The position numbers and the translations under genes were made by a program. A DNA stretch of 64,000 nucleotides from Blastococcus saxobsidens (lineage in GTDB: Bacteria; Actinomycetota; Actinomycetes; Mycobacteriales; Geodermatophilaceae), in assembly GCF_002938435.1 (NCBI RefSeq), contig NZ_POQT01000009.1:62001-126000 (forward strand). Direction: 5' to 3'. The first letter of the stretch is position 1, and the number at the start of each line of letters is the position of its first letter. This document shows, one piece after another, positions 1-63,800 of the stretch. The notes below the pieces were generated by a model that was not told the origin of the DNA, made no database searches, and was given only the letters and a program-made list of their open reading frames with translations.

Positions 1-1293
1 CGCCACGTCCAGCTCGGACAGGTTGCTGGCGGAGACGGCCGGCGCGATCAGGGCGGCCGTCGTGAGCAGCGCGACGGTGGCCGAGCCCTGCGCGACCCGC
101 AGGCAGGTGGCGACGACGAACGCGGCCACGATCACCGGCAGCCCCAGCCCCTCGAGGCTGTCGGCGAGCGCGGCACCGATCCCGCTGGCCCGCAGGACGC
201 CACCGAACATACCGCCGGCGCCGGTGATCAGGATGATGGCGCAGACGGGCCCGAGGGAGGAGTTGAGCAGCTCCTCGATCTCACCCTTCGAGAACCGTTC
301 GCGGCTGAGGACGACGGCGGCCACCAGGACCGTGATGAGCAGGGCCACCGGCGTCTGGCCGATCAGCCGCAGGGCCGCGACCCAGGTCGCGTCGCCGTCG
401 ACGACCCCCGCGGTGCCCAGCGTGTTCAGCCCGGTGTTGAACAGGATCAGCACCAGGGGCAGCAGGAGCAGCGCGAGCACGGTGCCGAAGCGCGGTGCGG
501 TGCGCGCCGGGCCGCGGGTCGCGACATCCACGCCCCCGCCCGCCGGGGTGGCTCCGCCGGTGCCTCCGGCGTCGCCGTGGGTGTCGTCCAGGGTGCCGCC
601 GGGCAGGCGCTCGGCGGGGCCGCCGCCGGTCGCGAACGCGTCGGGCACCGGCAGCGGGAAGCGGTGCCCGGCCCACTTGCTGAACAGGTAGGACGCGATG
701 TACCAGGTGGGCAGCCCGATCACGAGGCCCACGACGACCAGCAGGCCGATGTTCGCCCCGAGGATGTCCCCCGCACCGACCGGACCCGGGTGCGGTGGGA
801 CGAACGCGTGCATGACCGCGAACGCGCCGGCCGAGGGCAGCGCGTAGAGCAGCACGGAGCCGCCGAACTGGCGGGCGACGCTGAAGATGATCGGCAGGAA
901 GACCACGAACCCGGCGTCGAAGAAGATCGGGAAGCCGAAGAGCAGGGAGGCGACGCCGAGCGCCAGCGGGGCCCGCTTCTCCCCGAAGCGGCCGATCAGG
1001 GTGTCGGCGAGCACGGTGGCGCCGCCGGTCACCTCCAGCAGCTTGCCGATCATGGCACCGAGACCGACCAGCAGCGCCACGCTGGCCAGGGTGGAGCCGA
1101 ACCCCGCGAGCAGCGTGTCGATCACCTCGGCCGTCGGGATGCCGGTGGCCAGCGCCGTGAGCAGGCTGACCAGGACCAGGGCCACGAAGGCGTGCAGCTT
1201 GAACTTCATGACGAGGACGAGCAGCACGGCGACGGCGGCGACCGCGATCAGCAGCAGCGGGCCGGTTCCCAGGGTCGGGACGACTTCTTCCAT
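1..1293 (-). CDS. GntP-family gluconate:H+ symporter, 3' end beyond window
   Basis: An open frame of 431 codons with no stop before the window edge, so the C-terminus is missing. The product is a highly hydrophobic multi-pass protein. N-terminal residues MEEVVPTLGTGPLLLIA, the segment around HAFVPPHPGPVGAG and the long paired hydrophobic blocks match the GntP family, whose members import gluconate or related sugar acids with protons. A hydrophilic Gly/Pro-rich loop near residues 225-255 separates the two halves, as is usual. The ATG is preceded by GAGAGG at a good distance. A gluconate kinase or regulator would be expected just left of the window. The substrate could also be another aldonate or hydroxy acid. 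Confidence 0.85.
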   Translation of the reverse strand, partial: MEEVVPTLGTGPLLLIAVAAVAVLLVLVMKFKLHAFVALVLVSLLTALATGIPTAEVIDTLLAGFGSTLASVALLVGLGAMIGKLLEVTGGATVLADTLIGRFGEKRAPLALGVASLLFGFPIFFDAGFVVFLPIIFSVARQFGGSVLLYALPSAGAFAVMHAFVPPHPGPVGAGDILGANIGLLVVVGLVIGLPTWYIASYLFSKWAGHRFPLPVPDAFATGGGPAERLPGGTLDDTHGDAGGTGGATPAGGGVDVATRGPARTAPRFGTVLALLLLPLVLILFNTGLNTLGTAGVVDGDATWVAALRLIGQTPVALLITVLVAAVVLSRERFSKGEIEELLNSSLGPVCAIILITGAGGMFGGVLRASGIGAALADSLEGLGLPVIVAAFVVATCLRVAQGSATVALLTTAALIAPAVSASNLSELDVA

Positions 1294-33443: not shown

Positions 33444-34190
33444 GTGACGGACTCGAGCGGGACCCCCGGCGACACGCGGACGACGGATGCCGCCTCGGCC
33501 TCGGTCCGCACGTTTCCCGACCGCAGCGCGGACGGCGACGGCCTGACGCAACGCCAGCGCCGGGTCCTCGAGGTCATCCGCGACTCGATCGAGCGGCGCG
33601 GCTACCCGCCGTCGGTCCGCGAGATCGGCGAGGCCGTCGGCCTGTCGTCGGCATCCTCCGTGGCGCACCAGCTGTCGGTGCTGCAGAAGAAGGGCTGGCT
33701 GCGGCGCGATCCGAACCGGCCCCGGGCGCTGGACGTCCGCCTGCCCGGCGAGACCGGCCGCAGCACCGCCCCGACCGTCGAGCGTCCGGCGACCGCCGAG
33801 GGCGAGCAGGCCGCGGCGCCGACCTACGTCCCCCTGGTCGGCCGCATCGCCGCCGGTGGTCCCGTGCTCGCGGAGCAGGCGGTGGAGGACGTGTTCCCCC
33901 TCCCCCGCGAGCTCGTCGGCGAGGGCACCGTCTTCATGCTCAAGGTCGTCGGTGACTCGATGGTCGAGGCGGCCATCTGCGACGGCGACTACGTCGTGGT
34001 CCGTCAGCAGCCGACCGCGGAGAACGGCGAGATCGTCGCCGCCATGATCGACGGCGAGGCCACGGTCAAGACCTACAAGCGCCGCGACGGGCACGTGTGG
34101 CTGCTGCCGCACAACCCGGCGTACGAGCCGATCCCGGGTGACGAGGCGACGATCCTCGGCCGCGTGGTCTCGGTGCTCCGCCGGGTCTGA
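33444..34190 (+). CDS. lexA: LexA SOS repressor
   Basis: A 248-aa repressor-protease. A winged helix occupies residues about 34-100 ([49 protein letters not shown]). The self-cleavage site is A137-G138 in RIAAGGP; the catalytic dyad is S172 (VGDSMVE) and K209 (ATVKTYK). On RecA activation it cuts itself and derepresses SOS genes. The N-terminal 30 residues form a non-conserved extension, common in actinobacteria. GAGGAGGA precedes the GTG start. It is divergent from the LysM gene with three SOS boxes between, and followed by a hairpin. Confidence 0.97.
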
Positions 34191-34264: not shown

Positions 34265-35053
34265 TCAGCGACGCTGGTAGTTCCCGTCACGCTTCTCGAA
34301 GAAGGCGCTCAGCGCCTCCTGATGGTCCTCGGTCCGGAACATCTCCAGGAAGCGCCTGGTCTGCAGGGCCTGTCCCTCGCCGAAGTCCATCTCGAAGGCT
34401 TTGGTCACCGCCTCCTTGGTGACCTCCACCGACAGCGGCGCACGGGTCGCGATCCGATGCGCCTTCGCCAGGGCCGCCGGCATCAGATCCGCCGGCTCGT
34501 GGACCTCGGTCACCAGCCCCCAGTTGAGGGCCTGCTCGGCGGTGTACCGGGCCCCGGTCAGCAGGATCTCCTTGGCCGGCCCCAGCCCGATGACGCGCGG
34601 CAGGCGCCAGAAGCTGACGATGAGGCCGACGTTCACCCCCGCGGCGACGAAGAACGCGTCCGTCGAGGCGATCCGGATGTCGGCGCACAGGGCGAACTCC
34701 AGGCCACCACCCACCGTGGCCCCGTTGATCGCAGCGATGACCGGCGCACGGAAGTGCTGCACCCCGTTGAGGACACGACTGAACTCGGCGAGGTAGTCGG
34801 TGAGCTGCTCGTCGGACATGAACTGGTCCTCGCGCAGCTGGGCCCCTGCCGTGAACGCACGGCCCTCGCCGGTGATGACGAGGCACCGGACGTTCTCGTC
34901 GGCGTCGAGGATGTCCAGCGCCCGCATGAAGGATCGCCGGCTCTCCCAGCTGAACGTGTTGGCCGGCTCGGAGTCCAGGGTCAGGACGGCGATGTGCGGC
35001 GTCTCGTAGCGCAGGTGGACGCCGCTGCCGACATCTGTGGTGGTCTCAGTCAT
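34265..35053 (-). CDS. Crotonase-fold protein (enoyl-CoA hydratase/isomerase family)
   Basis: A 262-aa protein with the CoA-binding and oxyanion-hole regions of the crotonase family: ENVRCLVITGEGRAFTAGAQL and AAINGATVGGGLEFALCADIRIAS. The first catalytic glutamate of hydratases (Glu144 in rat) is kept as the Glu of GGGLEFA. The second (Glu164, in a PE motif) aligns with the glycine of VAAGVNVG, so ordinary enoyl-CoA hydration is doubtful; isomerase, hydrolase or lyase chemistry is possible. It is the last gene of a five-gene operon, its ATG overlapping the permease stop by 4 bases. It presumably acts on the CoA thioester made by the operon's CoA-transferase. Confidence 0.85.
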   Translation of the reverse strand: MTETTTDVGSGVHLRYETPHIAVLTLDSEPANTFSWESRRSFMRALDILDADENVRCLVITGEGRAFTAGAQLREDQFMSDEQLTDYLAEFSRVLNGVQHFRAPVIAAINGATVGGGLEFALCADIRIASTDAFFVAAGVNVGLIVSFWRLPRVIGLGPAKEILLTGARYTAEQALNWGLVTEVHEPADLMPAALAKAHRIATRAPLSVEVTKEAVTKAFEMDFGEGQALQTRRFLEMFRTEDHQEALSAFFEKRDGNYQRR

Positions 35054-36885
35054 GCTGCTTCCTCCGGGGGTGTGTCGAGGACGACGGACGGGGATCGGCG
35101 GGACCGCCTGGCGGACTCGCCGGGCCTGCGATCGAGCAGCCGCATCGCGATCACGGTCACCACGATGTTGATCAGCAGGATCACCACGGAGAGCGCGCCG
35201 ACCCGCTGGTAGAGCGACTCGCTGGCCAGGTTGTAGAGCACCGTGGCCACCGTGGGATTGGCGCCGGTGTAGAGGAACACCGACATCTCCAGCTCCCGGA
35301 AGAGCAGGACGAAGTTGAGCAGACCTGCGGCCAGCAGCGAGGGCCGCAGCAGCGGAACCGTGATCCGCCGCCACGTGCGCGCCCAAGACGCGCCCAGGCC
35401 GCGAGAGGCCTCCTCCACCTCGGCGCCGATCTGGCCCATGCCGGCGTGGACGTAGGCGAACGTCAGCGGCAGGGCGCTGCCTGCGTATGCGATGAGCAGG
35501 ATGGTGAGCGTCCCGCCGAGTCCGAACGGCTGGGCGGCGTAGGCGATGATCAGCCCGATACCGAGGACCGCCCCCGGAAAGGCCAGCGGAGCGGCCATGG
35601 CACCGACGATCAGCGCATTGCTGCGTGCCTTGGTGCGGTGCACCAGCCACGAGGCGAGCAGCGCCACGAGCAGCGCCAGGAGGGTGCCGCCGATCGCCAG
35701 CGCGAAGCTGTTCCCCATGGCCGCGGCGATCAGCGGCCGACCGAAGACCTCCTCGTAGTTGCCGGTCAGGGTGAAGTTGTCCCACCCGAGGGGACGGCCC
35801 AGTGCCTTGCGGAAGGACGTCACCAGCAGCATGCCGAAGGGCAGGACCAGGCTCAGCCCCACGACGGCCGTGCAGAACGCCACCGCCAGGTAGCGACCGG
35901 CCCCCAGGTGCGTGACGTCCTGCCGACCCGGCTTTCCCCCGATGACGGTGAAACGCCTCCCGCCCACGAGTTTTCGCTGGATCAGCAGCAGCGCCGCGAT
36001 GATGACGAGGATGGGCACGGAGATGACCGCGGCGACCTCGATCCGGGGCGGGAACTGCATGAGGCTCAGCAGCACCGTCGGGATGGTCTGGAAACCGGTG
36101 GGAGCCCCGAGGATCGCCACCGGGCCGAAGATGATCGCCGAGGAGACGAATACCAGGATCGCCCCGGCGATCAGGGCCGGCGCGATGACGGGGAACGTGA
36201 CCGTACGCAGTACCCGCCAGCGGGAGGCACCGAGACTCGCCGCGGCGTGCTCCAGCGCCGGGTCGATCCCCTCCAAGGCCGCCGATACGGGCAGGAAGAC
36301 CAACGGGTAGAGGAACAGCGACAGGACGAAGATGATCCCCCACGCCGTGAATATGTTGAACGGTGACTCCTCCAGGCCGAAGATCGACATCAGCGTGGTG
36401 TTCAGCACCCCGTTGCGCGGCCCGAGAAGGAGCACCCATCCCAGGGCGGCGATAAAACTGGGGGCCGCGAAGGTGAGGACGGCGCTGCCGCGAAAGAACC
36501 GCCGCATCGGCATGTCCGTGCGCACGGTGAACCACGCCAGTGGCAGCCCGATGAGGAGGCTGCCCAGCACGGTGCCGCAGGCGATCCAGAGCGAGTTGCG
36601 GATGGCCGCGAGCAACTGGGGCTCGGTGCCCAGCAACGCGTAGTTGGACAGGGTGATGCCGCCGTCCTCGGCCACGATGCTCTGCCCGAACACCTGCGCG
36701 ATCGGATAACCGACCAGGGCCAGCAGCGCCAGCGTCCACACCACCCGCATGGCGCGCTCGAACCCGGTCGACCGTCGGCGGCGCGGCGCCCGGCCGGGGG
36801 TCGGCCCCCCGGCCGGGCCGGAGGCCGACCGCGCGCGCGGACCGGCCTCCGACACCGTCGAGGTCGCGGAGTGGCTCAGGGTCAC
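35050..36885 (-). CDS. ABC transporter permease, fused double BPD domain (FbpB/SfuB type)
   Basis: A 611-aa protein with about twelve helices and two binding-protein-dependent permease domains in one chain. EAA-like loops occur near residue 210 (LEHAAASLGASRWRVLRTVTFPVIAPA) and near 495 (VEEASRGLGASWARTWRRITVPLLRPS). Fused permeases of this kind serve Fe3+, spermidine-like or organic-anion importers. The first 35 residues are a basic cytoplasmic extension. It works with the adjacent ATPase and lipoprotein. The GTG at 36885 is chosen by GGAGGG upstream; the crotonase gene starts in its stop. Iron uptake is possible on family grounds, but gene company favours an organic acid. Confidence 0.88.
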   Translation of the reverse strand: MTLSHSATSTVSEAGPRARSASGPAGGPTPGRAPRRRRSTGFERAMRVVWTLALLALVGYPIAQVFGQSIVAEDGGITLSNYALLGTEPQLLAAIRNSLWIACGTVLGSLLIGLPLAWFTVRTDMPMRRFFRGSAVLTFAAPSFIAALGWVLLLGPRNGVLNTTLMSIFGLEESPFNIFTAWGIIFVLSLFLYPLVFLPVSAALEGIDPALEHAAASLGASRWRVLRTVTFPVIAPALIAGAILVFVSSAIIFGPVAILGAPTGFQTIPTVLLSLMQFPPRIEVAAVISVPILVIIAALLLIQRKLVGGRRFTVIGGKPGRQDVTHLGAGRYLAVAFCTAVVGLSLVLPFGMLLVTSFRKALGRPLGWDNFTLTGNYEEVFGRPLIAAAMGNSFALAIGGTLLALLVALLASWLVHRTKARSNALIVGAMAAPLAFPGAVLGIGLIIAYAAQPFGLGGTLTILLIAYAGSALPLTFAYVHAGMGQIGAEVEEASRGLGASWARTWRRITVPLLRPSLLAAGLLNFVLLFRELEMSVFLYTGANPTVATVLYNLASESLYQRVGALSVVILLINIVVTVIAMRLLDRRPGESARRSRRSPSVVLDTPPEEAA

Positions 36886-36940
36886 GATCCGCCCCCTCCC
36901 GGCGGGCCGGCGGGAGCGCCGGCCCGTAGCGGGTCCGTGC

Positions 36941-38035
36941 TCATCGGTTGAACAGTTCGGCGAAGCGGGCCACCACCTGGTCTCCCCGGGTAGCGATGTC
37001 CTCGAGGTCGGAGGGAAGGAGCGTGGCCTTGGACAGGTCAGCGCCTTCTGCCGGCTGGGGAGCACCGTCGAGCACGCTGCGGCCGCCGATCTCGACCAGC
37101 GCGTTCTGGAAGTCCTCGCTCAGCTGGTACTGCATCAGCAACTTCGCGGCGTTGGGCCGCGGCGCGTCGGCGAGCAACGCCAGCTCGCTGGTGAAGGTCG
37201 GCACGCCGTCCTCCATGAAGGCGATCTCGAGCGGCTCCCCCTCCGCGGCCGCACTGAGCACCGCGGACTCGATGGCCGGAACACCGATGTCGGCCTCGCC
37301 GGTGAGCACCAGCTGCGCGAGAGCCAGGCTGCTGTCGGTCACGATCACGTTCCGCTCGGACAGCTGCTGGAGCCACTCCTCTCCGTACAGACCGGTGAGC
37401 GTCGTGTAGAACGCCAGCGCGGTGCCGGACGCGCCCGGATCGGCACTCACGATCGTGCCCTGGGCCGAGGACGCGAACTCCTCCCAGGTGGTCGGCAGGT
37501 CCGCGGGGTCGGTGGTGGCGCCGTTGTACATGATCCCGAGCGGCACGAGGCTGTAGGGCACCTGCGGGTTGTCGGGGTTGTCCAGGCCGTCGATGATCTT
37601 GTCTACGTTGGGGATGTCGGCGTCGGTGATGACCCCCTCGTCCGCCCACTGCTGGAGCGTGTCCGGATCGGTCAGGCTGACCACGTCGGCGTTGAGGGAT
37701 CCGCTGGCCAGTTCCGCGGAGATGGAGTTGGCGACCGCGCCGGAGTCCTCCCGGGTGAACGTCACCTCGATGTCGAAGAGCTCCTGCATGCGCTGCTGGA
37801 GCAGCTCGACGCCTGGACGGGTGTGGCCGCCGGCGTAGATGACGACGCCACCCTCCTCCTGGGCTGCGGCGATGAGGTCCTCGCTGATGCCCTCGATGCC
37901 GGCGGCTTCGCCCCCGCTTCCGCCGCCGCCGCCGGCGGCCGGCTCGGAGCCGTCGCCGCACCCGGCGAGGAGGACGGCGGACAAGGGAACGGCGAACAGG
38001 GCGTTCCTGCGGCGGGCGGTGGGACGGATGGACAC
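36941..38035 (-). CDS. ABC solute-binding lipoprotein (Fe3+/organic-anion type)
   Basis: A 364-aa exported lipoprotein: MSIRPTARRRNALFAVPLSA then lipobox LLAGC, followed by a Gly-rich linker and a type II periplasmic-binding fold (GVVIYAGGHTRPGVELLQQ, VPYSLVPLGIMYNGA, LPTTWEEFA, AKLLMQYQLSEDFQNALVEIGGRSVL). The AfuA/FbpA-like subfamily includes binders of ferric iron, thiamine and phosphonates or carboxylates. The paired tyrosines that hold Fe3+ in FbpA (adjacent YY near the C-terminus) are not seen, which weakens an iron role. The GTG start has AGAGG upstream. It lies between the ATPase and permease genes with short gaps. Confidence 0.87.
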   Translation of the reverse strand: MSIRPTARRRNALFAVPLSAVLLAGCGDGSEPAAGGGGGSGGEAAGIEGISEDLIAAAQEEGGVVIYAGGHTRPGVELLQQRMQELFDIEVTFTREDSGAVANSISAELASGSLNADVVSLTDPDTLQQWADEGVITDADIPNVDKIIDGLDNPDNPQVPYSLVPLGIMYNGATTDPADLPTTWEEFASSAQGTIVSADPGASGTALAFYTTLTGLYGEEWLQQLSERNVIVTDSSLALAQLVLTGEADIGVPAIESAVLSAAAEGEPLEIAFMEDGVPTFTSELALLADAPRPNAAKLLMQYQLSEDFQNALVEIGGRSVLDGAPQPAEGADLSKATLLPSDLEDIATRGDQVVARFAELFNR

Positions 38036-38097
38036 GGTGCCTCTTCTCGGACGGACGTGCGCGGAGGGTGGACGAACGGCGGAGCGACGGAACCCGG

Positions 38098-39282
38098 TCA
38101 CGCGGCGGACCGCCCGGCCGGAGCTGGGGGAAGCGGGGCCCCCGCGGTGGCGGAGGAGCCTGGATGGTGGTCGTCCTGGCCCAGGACGGGGCTGCCCGGG
38201 CCATCACTGACGATGGCGACCGCGGTGCCGTCCACCTGGACCACGACGTCCTGACCGACGTCGAAACGCCCCAGGCTGGGCCCGGTCGTCTTCAGCGGCT
38301 CGGCGAGCCCGGGCAGGTCGACGGCGTACTGCACGTGGTCTCCGAAAAACAGCGCCTCGCTGACCCGAGCGGCACCCGCGGCACCGGGGCTTCCCGAGCT
38401 GAGGCGCAGGTCGACCGGACGGATCGACACGGCAACCACGTCCCCCGCCTGCACGGCCACGTCCGCCGGCCGCGGAGCGGTCACCGTGATCCCCCCGGGC
38501 AGCCGGAGGGGAACCCCCTCGGGGGACGACGGTCCGCACGCCGTGGCAGGCAGCAGGTTCGTCGCCCCCAGGGCGCGCGCGACGAAGCTCGTCCGTGGAT
38601 GCCGGTAGACATCTTCGGGTGCTCCGACCTGCACGATCCGCCCCGAGTGCATGACGACGAGCCGGTCGGCCAGCGACAGCGCCTCGGCCTGGTCGTGGGT
38701 GACGTAGACCATCGTCACCCCCAGCGACCGGTGGATCCGCTTGATCTCCGAGCGCATCTCCTCGCGCAGCCGCGTGTCGAGGTTGGACAGCGGCTCGTCC
38801 AGCAGCAGCAGCGCGGGGTCGTTGACCAGCGCGCGGGCCAGCGCGACGCGCTGCTGCTGCCCGCCGGAGAGCTGGTGGGCGTAGCGGTCGGCGAGACCGT
38901 CGAGCTGCACCATGGCGAGCGCCTCGTCGGTGCGCCGGCGGACCTCCGTCCGGCCCACCTTGGCCGTCGTCGGCCCGTAGCCGACGTTCTCCCGCACGCT
39001 GAGGTGCGGCCACAGCGCGTAGCTCTGGAACACCACCGACATGCGGCGGCGCTCCGGCGGGACGAACGTCCGCCCGCCGACGAGCACCTGGTCGCGGAGC
39101 CGGATCTCCCCGGAGTCGGGCCGCTCGAAACCGGCGATCATGCGCAGGCACGTGGTCTTCCCGCAGCCGGACGGCCCGAGAAGAACCACGGCCTCGCCCT
39201 CCTGGATGGACAGGTCGACCCCGTCCACGACGGGGGCCGCGCCGAAGCTCTTGGTGAGTCGGGACAACACGAGGTGCGTCAT
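38098..39282 (-). CDS. ABC transporter ATPase (PotA/FbpC type)
   Basis: A 394-aa ATPase: Walker A GPSGCGKTT near residue 36, Q-loop FQSYALWPH, signature LSGGQQQR near 138, Walker B LLLLDEPLSNLD and the H-loop VYVTHDQAEA. A C-terminal TOBE-type domain (about 245-370) is present, as in spermidine, iron and sugar importers. It powers the neighbouring fused permease. It begins within the stop of the CoA-transferase gene (ATGA overlap), binding import and CoA activation into one transcript. Confidence 0.93.
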   Translation of the reverse strand: MTHLVLSRLTKSFGAAPVVDGVDLSIQEGEAVVLLGPSGCGKTTCLRMIAGFERPDSGEIRLRDQVLVGGRTFVPPERRRMSVVFQSYALWPHLSVRENVGYGPTTAKVGRTEVRRRTDEALAMVQLDGLADRYAHQLSGGQQQRVALARALVNDPALLLLDEPLSNLDTRLREEMRSEIKRIHRSLGVTMVYVTHDQAEALSLADRLVVMHSGRIVQVGAPEDVYRHPRTSFVARALGATNLLPATACGPSSPEGVPLRLPGGITVTAPRPADVAVQAGDVVAVSIRPVDLRLSSGSPGAAGAARVSEALFFGDHVQYAVDLPGLAEPLKTTGPSLGRFDVGQDVVVQVDGTAVAIVSDGPGSPVLGQDDHHPGSSATAGAPLPPAPAGRSAA

Positions 39283-40562
39283 GCCGAGGCCTCCGTCGGC
39301 TGGAAGGGACGTGTGGGGCTGGAGGACAACTCCCCCGGGTCCTCGCCGGTGGGGGTGCTCAGCAGCACGCCGGCGGTGATCAGCTCATCGATTTCCGCGG
39401 CGGCAAACCCGGATCCGGCCAGGACCTCGCGGCTGTGCTGCCCGAGCAGCGGCGCCGGGCGGAGGACGGCGGAGGGGGTGGCCGAGAGCTTCACCGGGGA
39501 GCCGATGTGGCGGACGGTGCCCATCCGCGGGTGCACCGTCTGCACGACCATCTCCCGCGCCTGCACGTGCGGATCGGCGTAGACCTGCTCGATGTCGTAC
39601 AGCGGGCCGCTCGGCACCGCGGCCGCGCCGAGGACCTCCAGCCACTCGGCGGTGGTTCGCCGGCGCAGCGTCGTCGCCAGCTCCCCGGCCAGCTCGATGC
39701 GGTGCTTCATCCGCGCGGGATTGTCGGCGAACCGGGGATCCTCGAGCAGCGTCGAAAGCCCGAGGGTGCCGCACAGCCGCTCCCAGTTGCGCTGGTTGGC
39801 CGCGCCGATGGCGATCCAGCCGTCCGCGGTGGGGAGCGCCTCGTACGGCGCGGACAACCGGTGCGCCGAGCCCATGGGCCGGGCGACCTCTCCAGTGGCG
39901 AAGAACATGGCCGTCTCCCAGACGGTGTAGGCGATGCCCGCCTCGAGCAGCGAGGTGTCGACGAACTGACCCTCGCCGGTCTTCAGGCGGTGGATGTAGG
40001 CCGACAGCACGCCGTACGCGGCGAAGACGCCGGCGTTCAGATCGCAGATCGGGACGCCCACCTTCGCCGGCGCGCCTCCGTCCTCGCCGGTCATGCTCAT
40101 CAGGCCACTCATCGCCTGGGCGACGAGGTCGTAGCCGCCCCGGCCGGCGTAAGGGCCGGTGGCGCCGAAGCCCGAGATGGAGCAGTAGATGAGCGCCGGG
40201 TTCTCAGCTCGTAGGGCCTCCTGGCCGAGTCCGAAGCGCTCCAGCAGCCCGGGGCGGAAGTTCTCGACGAGGATGTCGGCGTCCCGGGCCAGCCGGCGCA
40301 CCACCTCGGCACCCCGCGGGTCCTTCAGGTCGACGGCGAGGCCGCGCTTGTTGCGGTTCATGGCGTTGAACGCCGGCGAGAGCTCCACGTCCGACCCGCG
40401 CGACATCCGGCGCGTGTCGTCACCACCCTCGGGCCGCTCGACCTTGATCACGTCGGCGCCCATGTCCGCCAGCAGCATGGAGCAGTAGGCGCCTGCCATG
40501 ACCTGCGTGAGGTCGAGGACCCGCACGCCCGCGAGCGCGCTGGGCCGAACCGGATCTGACAC
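39279..40562 (-). CDS. Family III CoA-transferase (CaiB/BaiF)
   Basis: A 427-aa enzyme of the formyl-CoA transferase class: VRVLDLTQVMAGAYCSMLLADMGADVIKVE at the N-terminus, NRNKRGLAVDLKDP near residue 70, ENFRPG near 100 and GRGGYDLVAQAMSGLM near 142. The likely catalytic Asp is D174 in PICDLNAG. It moves CoA from an acyl-CoA donor to a carboxylate. First gene of the operon, divergent from iclR. GGGAG precedes the GTG at 40562. Substrate unknown: the family spans carnitine, oxalate, itaconate, succinate and aromatic acids. Confidence 0.92.
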   Translation of the reverse strand: MSDPVRPSALAGVRVLDLTQVMAGAYCSMLLADMGADVIKVERPEGGDDTRRMSRGSDVELSPAFNAMNRNKRGLAVDLKDPRGAEVVRRLARDADILVENFRPGLLERFGLGQEALRAENPALIYCSISGFGATGPYAGRGGYDLVAQAMSGLMSMTGEDGGAPAKVGVPICDLNAGVFAAYGVLSAYIHRLKTGEGQFVDTSLLEAGIAYTVWETAMFFATGEVARPMGSAHRLSAPYEALPTADGWIAIGAANQRNWERLCGTLGLSTLLEDPRFADNPARMKHRIELAGELATTLRRRTTAEWLEVLGAAAVPSGPLYDIEQVYADPHVQAREMVVQTVHPRMGTVRHIGSPVKLSATPSAVLRPAPLLGQHSREVLAGSGFAAAEIDELITAGVLLSTPTGEDPGELSSSPTRPFQPTEASA

Positions 40563-40589
40563 GTGGTTCTCCCGACTTCGACTTGACGA

Positions 40590-40630
40590 CCGTGCCACCA
40601 CGTGGCACGGTTTGCCACGTGGTGGCACGG
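40590..40630. promoter_or_regulatory. 18-bp perfect inverted repeat, probable IclR-family operator
   Basis: Arms at 40590-40607 and 40613-40630 with a 5-bp spacer, in the gap between the divergent CoA-transferase operon and iclR. Each arm contains a 15-bp subsite TGCCAC-N3-GTGGCA, so the whole looks like two adjacent dimer sites. It sits 28 bp upstream of the operon start codon and 46 bp upstream of iclR. Confidence 0.8.
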
Positions 40631-40676
40631 TGTGACCGGCGCCACGTTAAGGTCGGACAGGAGTGACGTCAACCAC

Positions 40677-41432
40677 ATGCGATCGGTATCTGTCGCGCTC
40701 GGCGTCCTCGAGGCCGTGTCCGAACGCCAGCCGGTCGGCGTCAGCGAGCTCTCGCGCGCCATGCAGCTGCCCAAGTCCACGGCTCAGCGGATGCTGCTCA
40801 CCCTCGGCGAGCTGGGCTGGATCCGGGCGAGCCCGGAGGAGCCCACCCGGTGGTCGCTGACCACCAAGGCGCAGGCGATCGGCTCACGACACCGGGGCCA
40901 GGAGGAGATCCGGCACATCGCACTGCCCGCGATGCACGGGCTGTCGGCCACCACCGGCGAGACGGTCCACCTCTCGGTGCCCGAGGACCGCCGGATCGTG
41001 CTCCTGGACAAGATCGAGGGCGAACACCCGGTGCGCACCCACACCGAGGTCGGTCGGAGCGCGCCACTGCACACGACGGCATCCGGTAAGGCAGTGCTCG
41101 CCGCCATGCCGCCGGCACAGGCGGCGGCACTCCTGGGGGCAGCACCGCTGGAGGCGCTCACCGACCACACCGACACCGACGTCGAGGCCATCCTGCAGGA
41201 ACTGGAGGGCGTGCGCCGGCACGGGTACGCGGTCGCCGTGGGCACGAGGCACCCGGACGTCGCGGCCGTCGGCGCGGCGATCCTGAGCGAGCCCGGACAG
41301 CCGGTGGCGACGCTGAGCCTGTCACTGCCGTCGCAGCGGTTCCCCCGGCGCCTGTGGCCGGTGTACGGCGAGCAGGTCGCCCGAGCCGCGGCGGAGTGCA
41401 GCCGGCAACTGGGCTGGGATCCCCTGCCCTGA
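40677..41432 (+). CDS. IclR-family transcriptional regulator
   Basis: A 251-aa regulator. A winged helix-turn-helix occupies residues 1-60 (RSVSVALGVLEAVSERQPVGVSELSRAMQLPKSTAQRMLLTLGELGW) and the IclR effector domain follows (ATTGETVHLSVPEDRRIVLLDKIEG, PLHTTASGKAVLAAMPP, GYAVAVGTRHPDVAAVGAAI). It most likely controls the divergent import/CoA-transferase operon through the inverted repeat between them; IclR effectors are usually the pathway's small organic acid or its CoA product. AGGAG precedes the ATG at a longer than usual distance. Confidence 0.93.
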   Translation: MRSVSVALGVLEAVSERQPVGVSELSRAMQLPKSTAQRMLLTLGELGWIRASPEEPTRWSLTTKAQAIGSRHRGQEEIRHIALPAMHGLSATTGETVHLSVPEDRRIVLLDKIEGEHPVRTHTEVGRSAPLHTTASGKAVLAAMPPAQAAALLGAAPLEALTDHTDTDVEAILQELEGVRRHGYAVAVGTRHPDVAAVGAAILSEPGQPVATLSLSLPSQRFPRRLWPVYGEQVARAAAECSRQLGWDPLP

Positions 41433-41434
41433 GC

Positions 41435-42478
41435 TCAGGAGCGGCGGATGAGCCGCCCGCCGACCCAGACGACGATGGTGGCGCCCAGCGCGGCCAGCAA
41501 AGCGGCCGGCAGCGGTGAGCCCTCCCTGGTCAGGGCGGCGAAGCCGGGGACCTCGGTCTCTGCCGCGGGCGTCGCCGCACTCACCACCGTGGGCAGCGGA
41601 ACCTCGGTCACATCGATCGGGAGCCCCTCGCTCGCGATCACGAGACTCCGGGCGTCGGTGCTGAAGCTGATCGCCTCCCCCTGCGGCGACTCCGGCAGGG
41701 CCAGTCGGACCGGGGTGGTCGCCAGTGCGCCGGGCACGTCCGAACCGACCAGCGGCCAGACGTAGGCATCGGTGTAGGTGCGCAAGGCCAGCGCGCTGCC
41801 GTCCGAGGCGACCGCCCCACCGGTGATCATGAGCTGCCCCGCCCGGCCGACCGGTCCGCCGGGCGTGCCGGTGAGGGTCACGTTCACCGTCGCGACCCGC
41901 TCCATGGGCACGGTCGCCCCGTCGGCCAGCGCCCCCGCCGGCCGGTAGACACCGCTGGAGCCGAGCACCTCCTTGGTCACCACGTACGGGGTGCCGTCCG
42001 GAGCGAGGAGCAACGCCTCCGCGTCGTGCGGTCCGTCCGGATAGGTGAGCCGGTACAGCGCGGGACCCTCGGGCCGCAGGACGTGCAGCGCGACGGTCGG
42101 GCGCTTGGCGTCGTTGTCGCCGATGTCGGCGACCCAGACCGCACCGTCGGGGCCCACCGCGAGGTCCTCGGGGTCGTAGGGGTCGACCGGCGCGGTCTGC
42201 ACGTCGACCACCTGGCATGCGGAGTCCAGGCCGAGGACGCTGACCTGGTCGCCGCCGTCGTCGAGCGCCAGCGTCTGCTCGCCGACGACGACCAGCCCCG
42301 ACAGCTCGGCCAGCCGGGCGTCGGTGATGGAGCACCGGACGGTCGAGGGGCCGGCCGACGGAGCGGTCTCCTCCGCCACTGCTGGAGCCGCCACCCCCAG
42401 GGCGCCGCCCAGCGCCGTGGCCACGACGAGCCGGCGCCCCCAGGCGCGGCTAGGTCGTGCGGGATCCCTCATGGGCAT
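41435..42478 (-). CDS. Exported beta-propeller-like protein with C-terminal membrane anchor
   Basis: A 347-aa protein with a signal peptide (basic start, RRLVVATALGGALGVAAPAVA) and a final helix LPAALLAALGATIVVWVGGRLIRRS that would anchor it outside the membrane. The middle has repeated beta-blade-like segments: DPEDLAVGPDGAVWVADIGDN, HDAEALLLAPDGTPYVVTKE and SPQGEAISFSTDARSLVIASEG, suggesting a propeller. No enzyme residues recognised. Two candidate ATG codons (42478, 42472) lie inside the end of the PAP2 gene, so it is translated from the same message. Its stop is 2 bp from the convergent iclR stop. Confidence 0.72.
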   Translation of the reverse strand: MPMRDPARPSRAWGRRLVVATALGGALGVAAPAVAEETAPSAGPSTVRCSITDARLAELSGLVVVGEQTLALDDGGDQVSVLGLDSACQVVDVQTAPVDPYDPEDLAVGPDGAVWVADIGDNDAKRPTVALHVLRPEGPALYRLTYPDGPHDAEALLLAPDGTPYVVTKEVLGSSGVYRPAGALADGATVPMERVATVNVTLTGTPGGPVGRAGQLMITGGAVASDGSALALRTYTDAYVWPLVGSDVPGALATTPVRLALPESPQGEAISFSTDARSLVIASEGLPIDVTEVPLPTVVSAATPAAETEVPGFAALTREGSPLPAALLAALGATIVVWVGGRLIRRS

Positions 42479-60805: not shown

Positions 60806-63800
60806 GTGTCCGCCCGCGCGTCCGTCGGCAGCTCCCGGGGCGAGGGAGCGCTGGCCCGCTTCTCCGAGCCCACCCGGGCCTGGTTCACCGGTGCGTTCGA
60901 GCGCCCGACCGCGGCCCAGGACGGTGCCTGGGAGGCGATCAGCAGCGGCCGGCACGCCCTCGTCGTCGCTCCCACCGGCTCGGGCAAGACCCTCGCGGCG
61001 TTCCTGTGGTCGCTCGACCGGCTGGCCGCCACCCCGCCGGCCGACGAGGGCAGCCGCTGCCGGGTGCTCTACGTCTCGCCGCTCAAGGCGCTGGCCGTCG
61101 ACGTCGAGCGCAACCTGCGCGCCCCGCTCGCCGGCATCGGGCAGGCAGCGGCCCGGCTGGGGCTGCCCCGGCCGGAGATCCGGGTCGGCATCCGCTCCGG
61201 TGACACCCCAGCCGACGAGCGGCGCACCTTCACCCGCAAGCCGCCGGACATCCTGATCACCACGCCGGAGTCGCTGTTCCTGCTGCTCACCAGTGCCGCG
61301 CGGGAGGCGCTGCGCAGCGTGGAGACGGTGATCGTCGACGAGGTCCACGCGGTCACCGACTCCAAGCGCGGGGCGCACCTGGCCGTCTCCCTCGACCGCC
61401 TCGACGAGCTGCTGGAGCGGCCGGCCCAGCGGATCGGCCTGTCGGCCACCGTCCGCCCGATCGAGGAGGTCGCGACCTACCTCGCCGGCGGGCGTCCCGT
61501 CGAGATCGTCTCCCCCGGCTCGACGAAGCAGTGGGACCTCTCGGTCGTCGTCCCGGTCGAGGACATGAGCGAACTGGGTCAGCCGACCGGCGAGCTGGAG
61601 GGTTCGGCCGCCGGTAACCAGCCGCGGAACTCGATCTGGCCCGCGGTCGAGGAACGGGTGCTGGACCTGGTCCAGGCCCACCGCAGCACGATCGTCTTCG
61701 CCAACTCCCGGCGCCTGGCCGAACGGCTGACCAGCCGGCTCAACGAGCTCGCCTACGAGCGCGCCACCGGCGAGCCGGTGCCACCCGGCACCAACGCCGC
61801 CGCGCTCATGGCGCAGGCCGGCTCGGGCGGTGGGGTGCCCGAGGGCGTGCAGCCGGTCGCCGCCGCCCACCACGGCTCGGTCTCCCGCGAGCAGCGGGCC
61901 ATCGTCGAGGAGGCCCTCAAATCCGGGCGGTTGCCGGCCGTCGTCGCCACCTCCAGCCTCGAGCTCGGCATCGACATGGGCGCGGTCGACCTGGTCGTCC
62001 AGGTCGAGGCACCGCCCACCGTGGCCAGCGGTCTGCAGCGGGTCGGTCGCGCCGGTCACCAGGTGGGCGCGGTGAGCCGCGGGGTGCTCTTCCCGAAGTA
62101 CCGCGGCGACCTGGTCCAGTGCGCGCTGGTCGCCGAGCGCATGAAGGCCGGGGCCATCGAGTCGATCCGCTACCTGCGCAACCCGCTCGACGTGCTCGCG
62201 CAGCAGGTCGTCGCCATGGTCTCCGAGCGCCCCCGCACCGTGGACGAGGTCGGGGAGCTGGTGCGGCGGTCGGCGGCGTTCGCCTCGTTGCCGGAGTCCG
62301 CGCTGCACGCCGTCCTCGACATGCTGGCCGGGCGGTATCCCTCCGACGCGTTCGCCGAGCTGCGCCCGCGGCTGACCTGGGACCGCGTCACCGACACGCT
62401 CACCGCGCGGGCCGGAGCCCAGCGGCTGGCCGTCACCAGCGGCGGCACCATCCCCGACCGCGGGCTGTTCGGCGTCTTCCTCGTCGGCGCCGAGGGCACC
62501 GGCGGCCGCCGCGTCGGGGAGCTGGACGAGGAGATGGTCTACGAATCCCGGGTGGGCGACGTGTTCCTCCTCGGTTCGTCGTCCTGGCGGATCCAGGACA
62601 TCACCCACGACCGGGTGCTGGTCACCCCCGCACCGGGGCAGCCGGGGAAGATGCCGTTCTGGCACGGCGACGCACCCGGCCGCCCGCTGGAGCTCGGCCG
62701 CGCGCTGGGCGCGTTCCTCCGCGAGGTCGGCTCCGCGACGCCGGAGGCCGGGCTGGAGCGCGCCCGCGCCGCCGGCCTGGACGAGTGGGGAGCGGCCAAC
62801 CTCGCCGCCTACCTGACCGAGCAGAAGGCGGCCACCGGCCACCTCCCCGACGACCGCACGCTGCTGGTGGAGCGGTTCCGCGACGAGCTGGGCGACTGGC
62901 GGCTGGTGGTCCACTCGCCGTTCGGCGCGCAGGTGAACGCCCCCTGGGCGCTCGTTCTGGCTGCCCGGCTGCGCGAGCGCTACGGCGTCGACGTGTCGTC
63001 CATGCACTCCGACGACGGCATCGTGCTGCGCCTGCCCGACACCACCGGCGAGCCGCCCGAGGGCGAGCTGGCCGTCCTCGACCCCGACGACGTCGAGCGC
63101 GAGGTGACCGCCGAGGTGGGCACCTCGGCGCTGTTCGCCAGCCGGTTCCGGGAGTGCGCCGCGCGGGCCCTGCTCCTCCCCCGGCGCGACCCACGGCGGC
63201 GCACCCCGCTGTGGCAGCAGCGCCAGCGCGCGGCGCAGCTGCTCTCGGTCGCCAGCGAGTTCTCCTCCTTCCCGATCACCCTCGAGGCGGCCCGCGAGGT
63301 GCTGCAGGACGTGTACGACGTCCCGGGCCTGGTCGAGCTGATGCGTGACGTCCGCGCCCGCCGGGTGCGGGTGGTCGACGTCCAGACCGAGTCGGCCTCA
63401 CCCTTCGCCCAGTCGCTGCTGTTCGGCTACGTCGGCCAGTTCCTCTACGAGGGCGACGCCCCGCTGGCCGAGCGCCGCGCGCAGGCCCTCGCCCTGGACA
63501 CCGGCCTGCTCGCCGAACTGCTCGGCCGCTCCGAGCTGCGCGAGCTCCTCGACGCGCAGGCGTTGGCCGAGATCGAGTCGGAGCTGCAGCGGCTGCCGGA
63601 GCAGCGGCACCCGCGCGACGTCGACGGCGGCGGCGACCTGCTGCGCGTCGTCGGTGACCTGACCGCCGCCGAGGCCGCGCGACGCGGGGTGCCCCAGGCG
63701 TGGCTGGACGAGCTGGTCGCCGCCCGCCGGGCACTGCTGGTCCGCATCGCCGGCGAGGTGCGCTACGTCGCCATCGAGGACGCCGGGCGGCTGCGCGACG

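Follow-up and report, generated by a model that had tools for sequence, protein, structure and literature searches.

A run of six genes at 34265-41432 of the window, by which we mean the whole analysed stretch of Blastococcus saxobsidens DNA (64,000 nucleotides, positions 62,001 to 126,000 of contig NZ_POQT01000009.1), probably forms a catabolic cassette that moves horizontally and serves one carboxylic acid; a small di- or tricarboxylate is the likeliest substrate. The first-pass annotation of the window had described five minus-strand genes with a divergent iclR gene, and this arrangement holds: each protein family is backed by Pfam, and the 4-bp overlaps between the genes of the coenzyme A (CoA) transferase and the ATPase, and between those of the permease and the crotonase, are present. 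Three features go beyond that annotation: an atypical crotonase, a putative pair of operators, and gene neighbourhoods in relatives that hint at a carboxylate. The parts of the block and its flanks are as follows.

34265..35053, minus strand: crotonase-fold enzyme of the AGVNVGL clade; Glu119 is the Glu144 equivalent and Gly139 stands at the Glu164 place
35050..36885, minus strand: predicted fused two-domain permease of an ATP-binding cassette (ABC) importer; BPD_transp_1 in two stretches; nearest model PhnU2, below cut-off
36941..38035, minus strand: predicted solute-binding lipoprotein; SBP_bac_1/11/8/6
38098..39282, minus strand: predicted ABC ATPase with a TOBE domain; PotA/PhnT2-like, below cut-off
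39279..40562, minus strand: predicted family III CoA-transferase; in alignments Asp174 falls on the catalytic Asp of Frc, CaiB and YfdE
40677..41432, plus strand: IclR-family regulator, divergent also in relatives; longer starts possible
33444-34190 and 41435-42424: flanks of the cassette, lexA and the membrane-protein gene c5

The six-gene cassette is a real, discrete unit that is inherited as one block. Conservation of the gene order in relatives, the check that the first-pass annotation had proposed, was examined: the six-gene order is present in 11 relatives, and the block is all-or-none at one site. A search with the crotonase returned 11 loci, seven of which carry all six genes in unchanged order, and these seven together with G134, G021, G007 and G005 are the 11 relatives. 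The cassette sits at the same site as in the window in eight of them, as judged by at least one flank. At this site, the flanking gene c5 is present in all 23 genomes of the genus; lexA directly adjoins c5 in 16 genomes, and the cassette is inserted between the two genes in seven. Two Pseudonocardia (Pseudonocardiaceae) and G134 (family f4) carry the full-order cassette amid unrelated neighbours, and G094 and G085 (family f3) have the same gene set in a rearranged and more diverged form. In the c5 tree the carriers do not form one clade; three changes are required, two of which are forced by well-supported branches. The window lipoprotein is 92% identical to that of G005 and 76-77% identical to those of G014, G015 and G021, and since the c5 tree places G005 with G014 and G015, in conflict with these identities, it is likely that strains have swapped parts of the cassette. 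The cassette appears to be a mobile catabolic unit, moved horizontally. The G+C content of its six genes (68-73%) is slightly lower than that of the window (73.4%), which is no proof of origin. Two of the loci have peculiarities of their own. In Pseudonocardia sp. CNS-004 (L028:4862-7111) the transferase and the ATPase are each matched in two frames, by draft-assembly error or decay, and in G134 (L033:2672-18344) the neighbours of the cassette are an enolase-superfamily gene, two Rieske oxygenase-like genes, a nitrilase-family gene and another ABC importer.

Members of the crotonase clade occur in at least 12 of 397 genomes of the order (E <= 1e-70), in at least 8 of 249 in an earlier draw (E <= 1e-50), and in a class draw in at least one of 394, the window's own. 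A phylum draw gave at least two of 396 genomes, the window's own and, by a lipoprotein-like match, G403. For the class and phylum draws five to six candidates per genome were scored; the counts in the larger draws are lower bounds because the scoring covered a subset of the candidates. Within single families, the lipoprotein is present in 1 of 17 genomes of the family of G134 and the crotonase in 2 of 5 of the family of G094. G403 has a lipoprotein-like match and an importer, with no transferase or crotonase match within 18 kb; the importer alone is therefore not diagnostic. In the plasmid collection 73 records match the crotonase (E <= 1e-30), all below 60% identity, 20 of them being listed, and the lipoprotein matches 18 records, again all below 60%. 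At each of the two plasmid loci inspected, a CoA-transferase lies close to a crotonase or adjoins it; these crotonases have no clade motif and are placed outside the clade by the tree. A similar set with an ordinary-looking crotonase is found on a Streptomyces sp. NBC_00184 plasmid (L068:5702-9987), where genes for a CoA-transferase, a solute-binding protein and a crotonase that has the second Glu form an overlapping head-to-tail series, followed by a fumarylacetoacetate-hydrolase-family gene.

The enzyme at the end of the gene run belongs to the crotonase superfamily by its ECH_1 domain and its modelled fold. Gly occupies the place of rat Glu164 in all 15 clade members examined, in which the Glu144 equivalent is kept and the three loop residues after the Glu164 place are missing. 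Both glutamates matter for catalysis according to a passage of PMC3660561. With the Glu164 equivalent and three loop residues lost in 15 of 15 members, the enzyme is probably no ordinary hydratase; the two glutamates of a canonical enoyl-CoA hydratase are not both there, and routine annotation would probably give the altered-site clade that name. In a tree of 23 rows, 12 rows of the clade lie on one side of a branch with support of 100/99. The fold search returned many crotonases with nearly tied Z scores and indicated no single reaction; in the structure model, the altered loop ranks with the least reliable parts.

The partner of the crotonase is assigned to the family III (Frc) CoA-transferases by its domain and its predicted catalytic residue. 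PF02515 (CoA_transf_3) is matched with 452.5 bits over positions 1-366 of 366, a full-length domain, and Asp174 is invariant in 9 of 9 aligned rows, window included. The role of the corresponding catalytic Asp (Asp169 of Frc/CaiB) is described in a section of PMC9196870. Among the seven NCBIfam models matched, the best is succinate-glutarate CoA-transferase, with 373.5 of the 750 bits needed, followed by mesaconate and formyl/oxalate types, all below cut-off; the formyl-CoA:oxalate CoA-transferase model reaches 258.8 of 504.2 bits. The names of the nearest models are thus those of diacid substrates, and the best solved chain is 9br6, a succinate-hydroxymethylglutarate CoA-transferase (E = 1.8e-89). 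The genome of the window (G000, 4.52 Mb) has seven family III CoA-transferase matches, and that of the cassette is the strongest.

Lipoprotein, fused permease and ATPase are predicted to form a complete ABC importer. The permease gene starts with GTG and has GGGAGGGG upstream. All 10 aligned lipoproteins, that of the window (LAGC) included, have a lipobox-like site with an invariant Cys. The nearest solved chains are proteins named "Fe3+-type" (E = 6.4e-12 or weaker), followed by pyridoxal-phosphate- and thiamine-binding proteins, all of them remote. The first-pass annotation had counted against iron that adjacent tyrosines were not seen, and the window lipoprotein has no adjacent-tyrosine pair. 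YY is found at window position 209-210 in 3 of the 10 aligned proteins, which we take not to be the iron site. Iron is still conceivable as ligand.

The intergenic region between the transferase and iclR genes may hold the control elements of the cassette. The large inverted repeat noted earlier in this region has perfectly matching 19-nt arms (40589-40607 and 40613-40631) and is better read as two tandem 17-bp palindromes. The elements proposed are listed below.

40592..40608, no strand: putative operator copy 1, transferase-proximal; GTGCCAC-N3-GTGGCAC, 0 mismatches
40612..40628, no strand: putative operator copy 2, 20 bp from copy 1; 1 mismatch
40644..40672, minus strand: proposed cassette promoter TTGACG-N17-TAACGT

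In all nine Blastococcus-site loci, window included, 0-1 of the 14 positions mismatch in the transferase-proximal copy. A weaker copy with 1-4 mismatches starts exactly 20 bp upstream of it; in L022, L024 and L039 this weaker copy ties with another place 10 bp off. When 10 genomes were searched with the pattern GTKCCACNNNGTGGCAC, a zero-mismatch operator was found in 7 of 7 genus carriers, each time at the cassette only, and in neither of the two non-carriers searched nor in G134. Control therefore looks local, which agrees with the dedicated control suggested by the first-pass annotation. One-mismatch strand matches elsewhere in the 10 genomes number 25, versus 63 for the reversed control pattern, although single genomes run the other way (3 vs 1 in G000, 4 vs 2 in G021). 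A promoter-like TTGAC(G/C)-N16-18-T(A/C)NNNT, a pattern composed after the alignment had been viewed, starts 64-66 bp ahead of the transferase-proximal operator copy at 11 of 12 loci; a consensus scanner listed no promoter. Repression by IclR from the twin operators is what this layout suggests.

The surroundings of related enzymes offer clues to the substrate. The carboxylate substrate favoured by the first-pass annotation gains indirect support from G053 and G1044, of the same family as the window and of other genera, where the genes for a transferase (51% identical) and a clade crotonase (53-54%) share a 4-bp overlap and belong to a cluster that includes a tripartite tricarboxylate transporter (TctABC). 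These clusters also encode two further family III transferases (three in total), a citrate-synthase-family protein, TctA, TctC, an isopropylmalate/tartrate-dehydrogenase-like protein, a luciferase-like monooxygenase and a short-chain dehydrogenase/reductase (SDR). The citrate-synthase-family protein of G053 scores above the cut-off for citryl-CoA lyase, that of G1044 having been scanned with Pfam only; TctB and acyl-CoA dehydrogenase were scanned in G053 only. As units in their own right, the clusters (L097:2327-17858 in G053, L096:1745-17401 in G1044) possibly represent an undescribed polycarboxylate pathway. In G273, the crotonase (48%) follows prpD-, prpB- and prpC-like genes, and the prpC-like protein scores above the 2-methylcitrate synthase model cut-off. 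Adjoining genes at that locus (L036:5823-16181) encode a ScfR-type regulator, isocitrate lyase, 3-hydroxyacyl-CoA dehydrogenase and a second citrate-synthase-family protein. In Pseudonocardia nigra (L029:4497-10777) a crotonase of 75% identity comes directly after a dipeptide-type ABC importer. Counting the cassette itself, the transferase/crotonase pair accompanies two dissimilar importers, and the crotonase by itself accompanies another. By association, these neighbourhoods suggest di- or tricarboxylates, but with identities near 50% the acid may be a different one. A sulfonate substrate, suggested by one TauE-family neighbour in G094, was dropped as a single case.

Based on the results presented above, a route for the acid may be proposed. 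The acid would bind the lipoprotein and be pumped in by the ABC importer, and once inside it would lift the repression that IclR exerts at the two operators, which lie shortly downstream of the promoter. The transferase would then pass CoA from succinyl-CoA or acetyl-CoA to the acid via an aspartyl anhydride, and the crotonase would convert the acyl-CoA via an enolate held in the oxyanion hole, with Glu119 as the sole one of the two classical acid/base glutamates. Since no other enzyme is encoded in the cassette, the product probably passes straight into central acyl-CoA metabolism. More tentatively, the one-glutamate crotonases might perform a reaction that is not known from partners of family III CoA-transferases, for example decarboxylation or C-C cleavage of an imported diacyl-CoA; importer, transferase and crotonase would then make up a complete transmissible diacid pathway whose product acyl-CoA is recycled as CoA donor. 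The cassette would be a minimal, self-contained catabolic unit, and if lipoprotein, transferase and crotonase share one acid, the ligand should reveal both enzyme reactions. Among the papers listed by literature searches, none was seen to describe this gene combination.

The reaction of the enzyme pair can be weighed against known crotonases. Only ScpB, among five E. coli crotonases compared, has the Glu144 equivalent and no Glu164 equivalent, with V-N-x-G at the latter place, and a specific form of the carboxylate cassette would be a transferase/decarboxylase cycle like that of Frc/Oxc, but with a crotonase: a diacid, for example of malonate or methylmalonate type, would receive CoA, the crotonase would decarboxylate it like ScpB, and the product acyl-CoA would be the next CoA donor. 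Such a cycle needs no further enzyme, and G273 couples the crotonase to methylcitrate-cycle genes, which consume propionyl-CoA. Nevertheless, we consider it unlikely: identity to ScpB is 27%, below that to CaiD, PaaF and PaaG (30-31%), ScpB lies outside the clade on a long branch, the three loop residues missing in the clade are kept by ScpB, and the SDR of the sister group is left unexplained. That SDR, which follows the crotonase in 4 of 4 sister-group genomes (G094, G085, G053 and G1044; group support 86/76), would be expected for a hydroxyacyl product and so fits a logic like that of CaiB/CaiD or AcuN/AcuK, in which an unsaturated or hydroxylated acid is activated and then hydrated, dehydrated or isomerised. 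The pair of enzyme families is also the same as in caiB-caiD. However, CaiD and PaaF keep both glutamates, the second of which the clade has lost, and the transferase is just 25% identical to CaiB; the pair therefore does not qualify as a CaiB/CaiD carnitine system, and a hydratase or isomerase logic appears rather doubtful.

It is also conceivable, albeit quite improbable, that importer and enzymes are mere neighbours, with a phosphonate, sugar phosphate or metal as the cargo of the ABC system and another acyl-CoA as the substrate of the enzymes. The Fe3+-type and pyridoxal-phosphate-binding structures nearest to the lipoprotein would fit such a case, as would the nearest lipoprotein and permease models, which are for 2-aminoethylphosphonate; these matches, however, fall far below the curated cut-offs (PhnS2, 48.2 of 392.75 bits; PhnU2, 155.2 of 593.25; with PhnT2 for the ATPase at 329.9 of 457.7). 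Moreover, importer and enzymes remain linked in different families although the sites are unrelated, moving as one block, and in relatives the enzyme pair lies with TctABC and the crotonase alone with a dipeptide-type importer. The reading as a carboxylate cassette has several points to answer. The lipoprotein belongs to a family whose other members are of iron, phosphonate, pyridoxal-phosphate and thiamine type, and its AlphaFold model is unusable (mean predicted local distance difference test score, pLDDT, of 33). The operator is weak outside the genus, the best Pseudonocardia site having 3 mismatches and G134 no clear pair. The enzymes of G053 and G1044 share just 51-54% identity with those of the window, and because a plus-strand gene intervenes there between TctABC and the enzyme pair, the two are neighbours and not one operon. 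No cassette-type importer or transferase was found in 20 kb around the crotonase of G273, and no CoA-transferase match in the 12.5 kb examined of P. nigra. Finally, the SDR of the sister group means that a further step may be needed; it has no match (E <= 1e-40) in 9 of 15 genomes (G000, G007, G014, G020, G021, G134, G273, G018 and G013), and the 43% matches in G005 and G015 are not beside the crotonase.

Among known systems, the importers of PhnSTU/AfuABC type have the same lipoprotein, permease and ATPase families, whereas the window proteins score below the equivalog cut-offs. As for the oxalate system (Frc/Oxc/YfdE), Gln17 of Frc, linked to oxalate in a passage of PMC10057887, is replaced by Met22 in the window transferase. 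Family III CoA-transferases, 32-34% identical to that of the window, likewise stand beside an acyl-CoA-processing enzyme there. In contrast to the window enzyme, Oxc is annotated as an oxalyl-CoA decarboxylase and is no crotonase. The acrylate pathway pairs a family III CoA-transferase, AcuN, with the hydratase AcuK and is not known to have a linked ABC importer. The likeness to AcuN/AcuK is one of description and lies in the two-enzyme acid conversion named in a part of PMC9327192. The methylmalonyl-CoA decarboxylase ScpB shares the glutamate pattern of the window crotonase, but has a longer loop and no importer in its gene run. Its partner ScpC is a propionyl-CoA:succinate CoA-transferase of a family other than III. 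The E. coli cai operon differs in that CaiT is an antiporter and not an ABC importer, CaiD has both glutamates, and CaiA, CaiC and CaiE are additional; with CaiT, CaiB and CaiD it nevertheless combines, as the cassette does, an importer, a family III CoA-transferase and a crotonase in one gene run.

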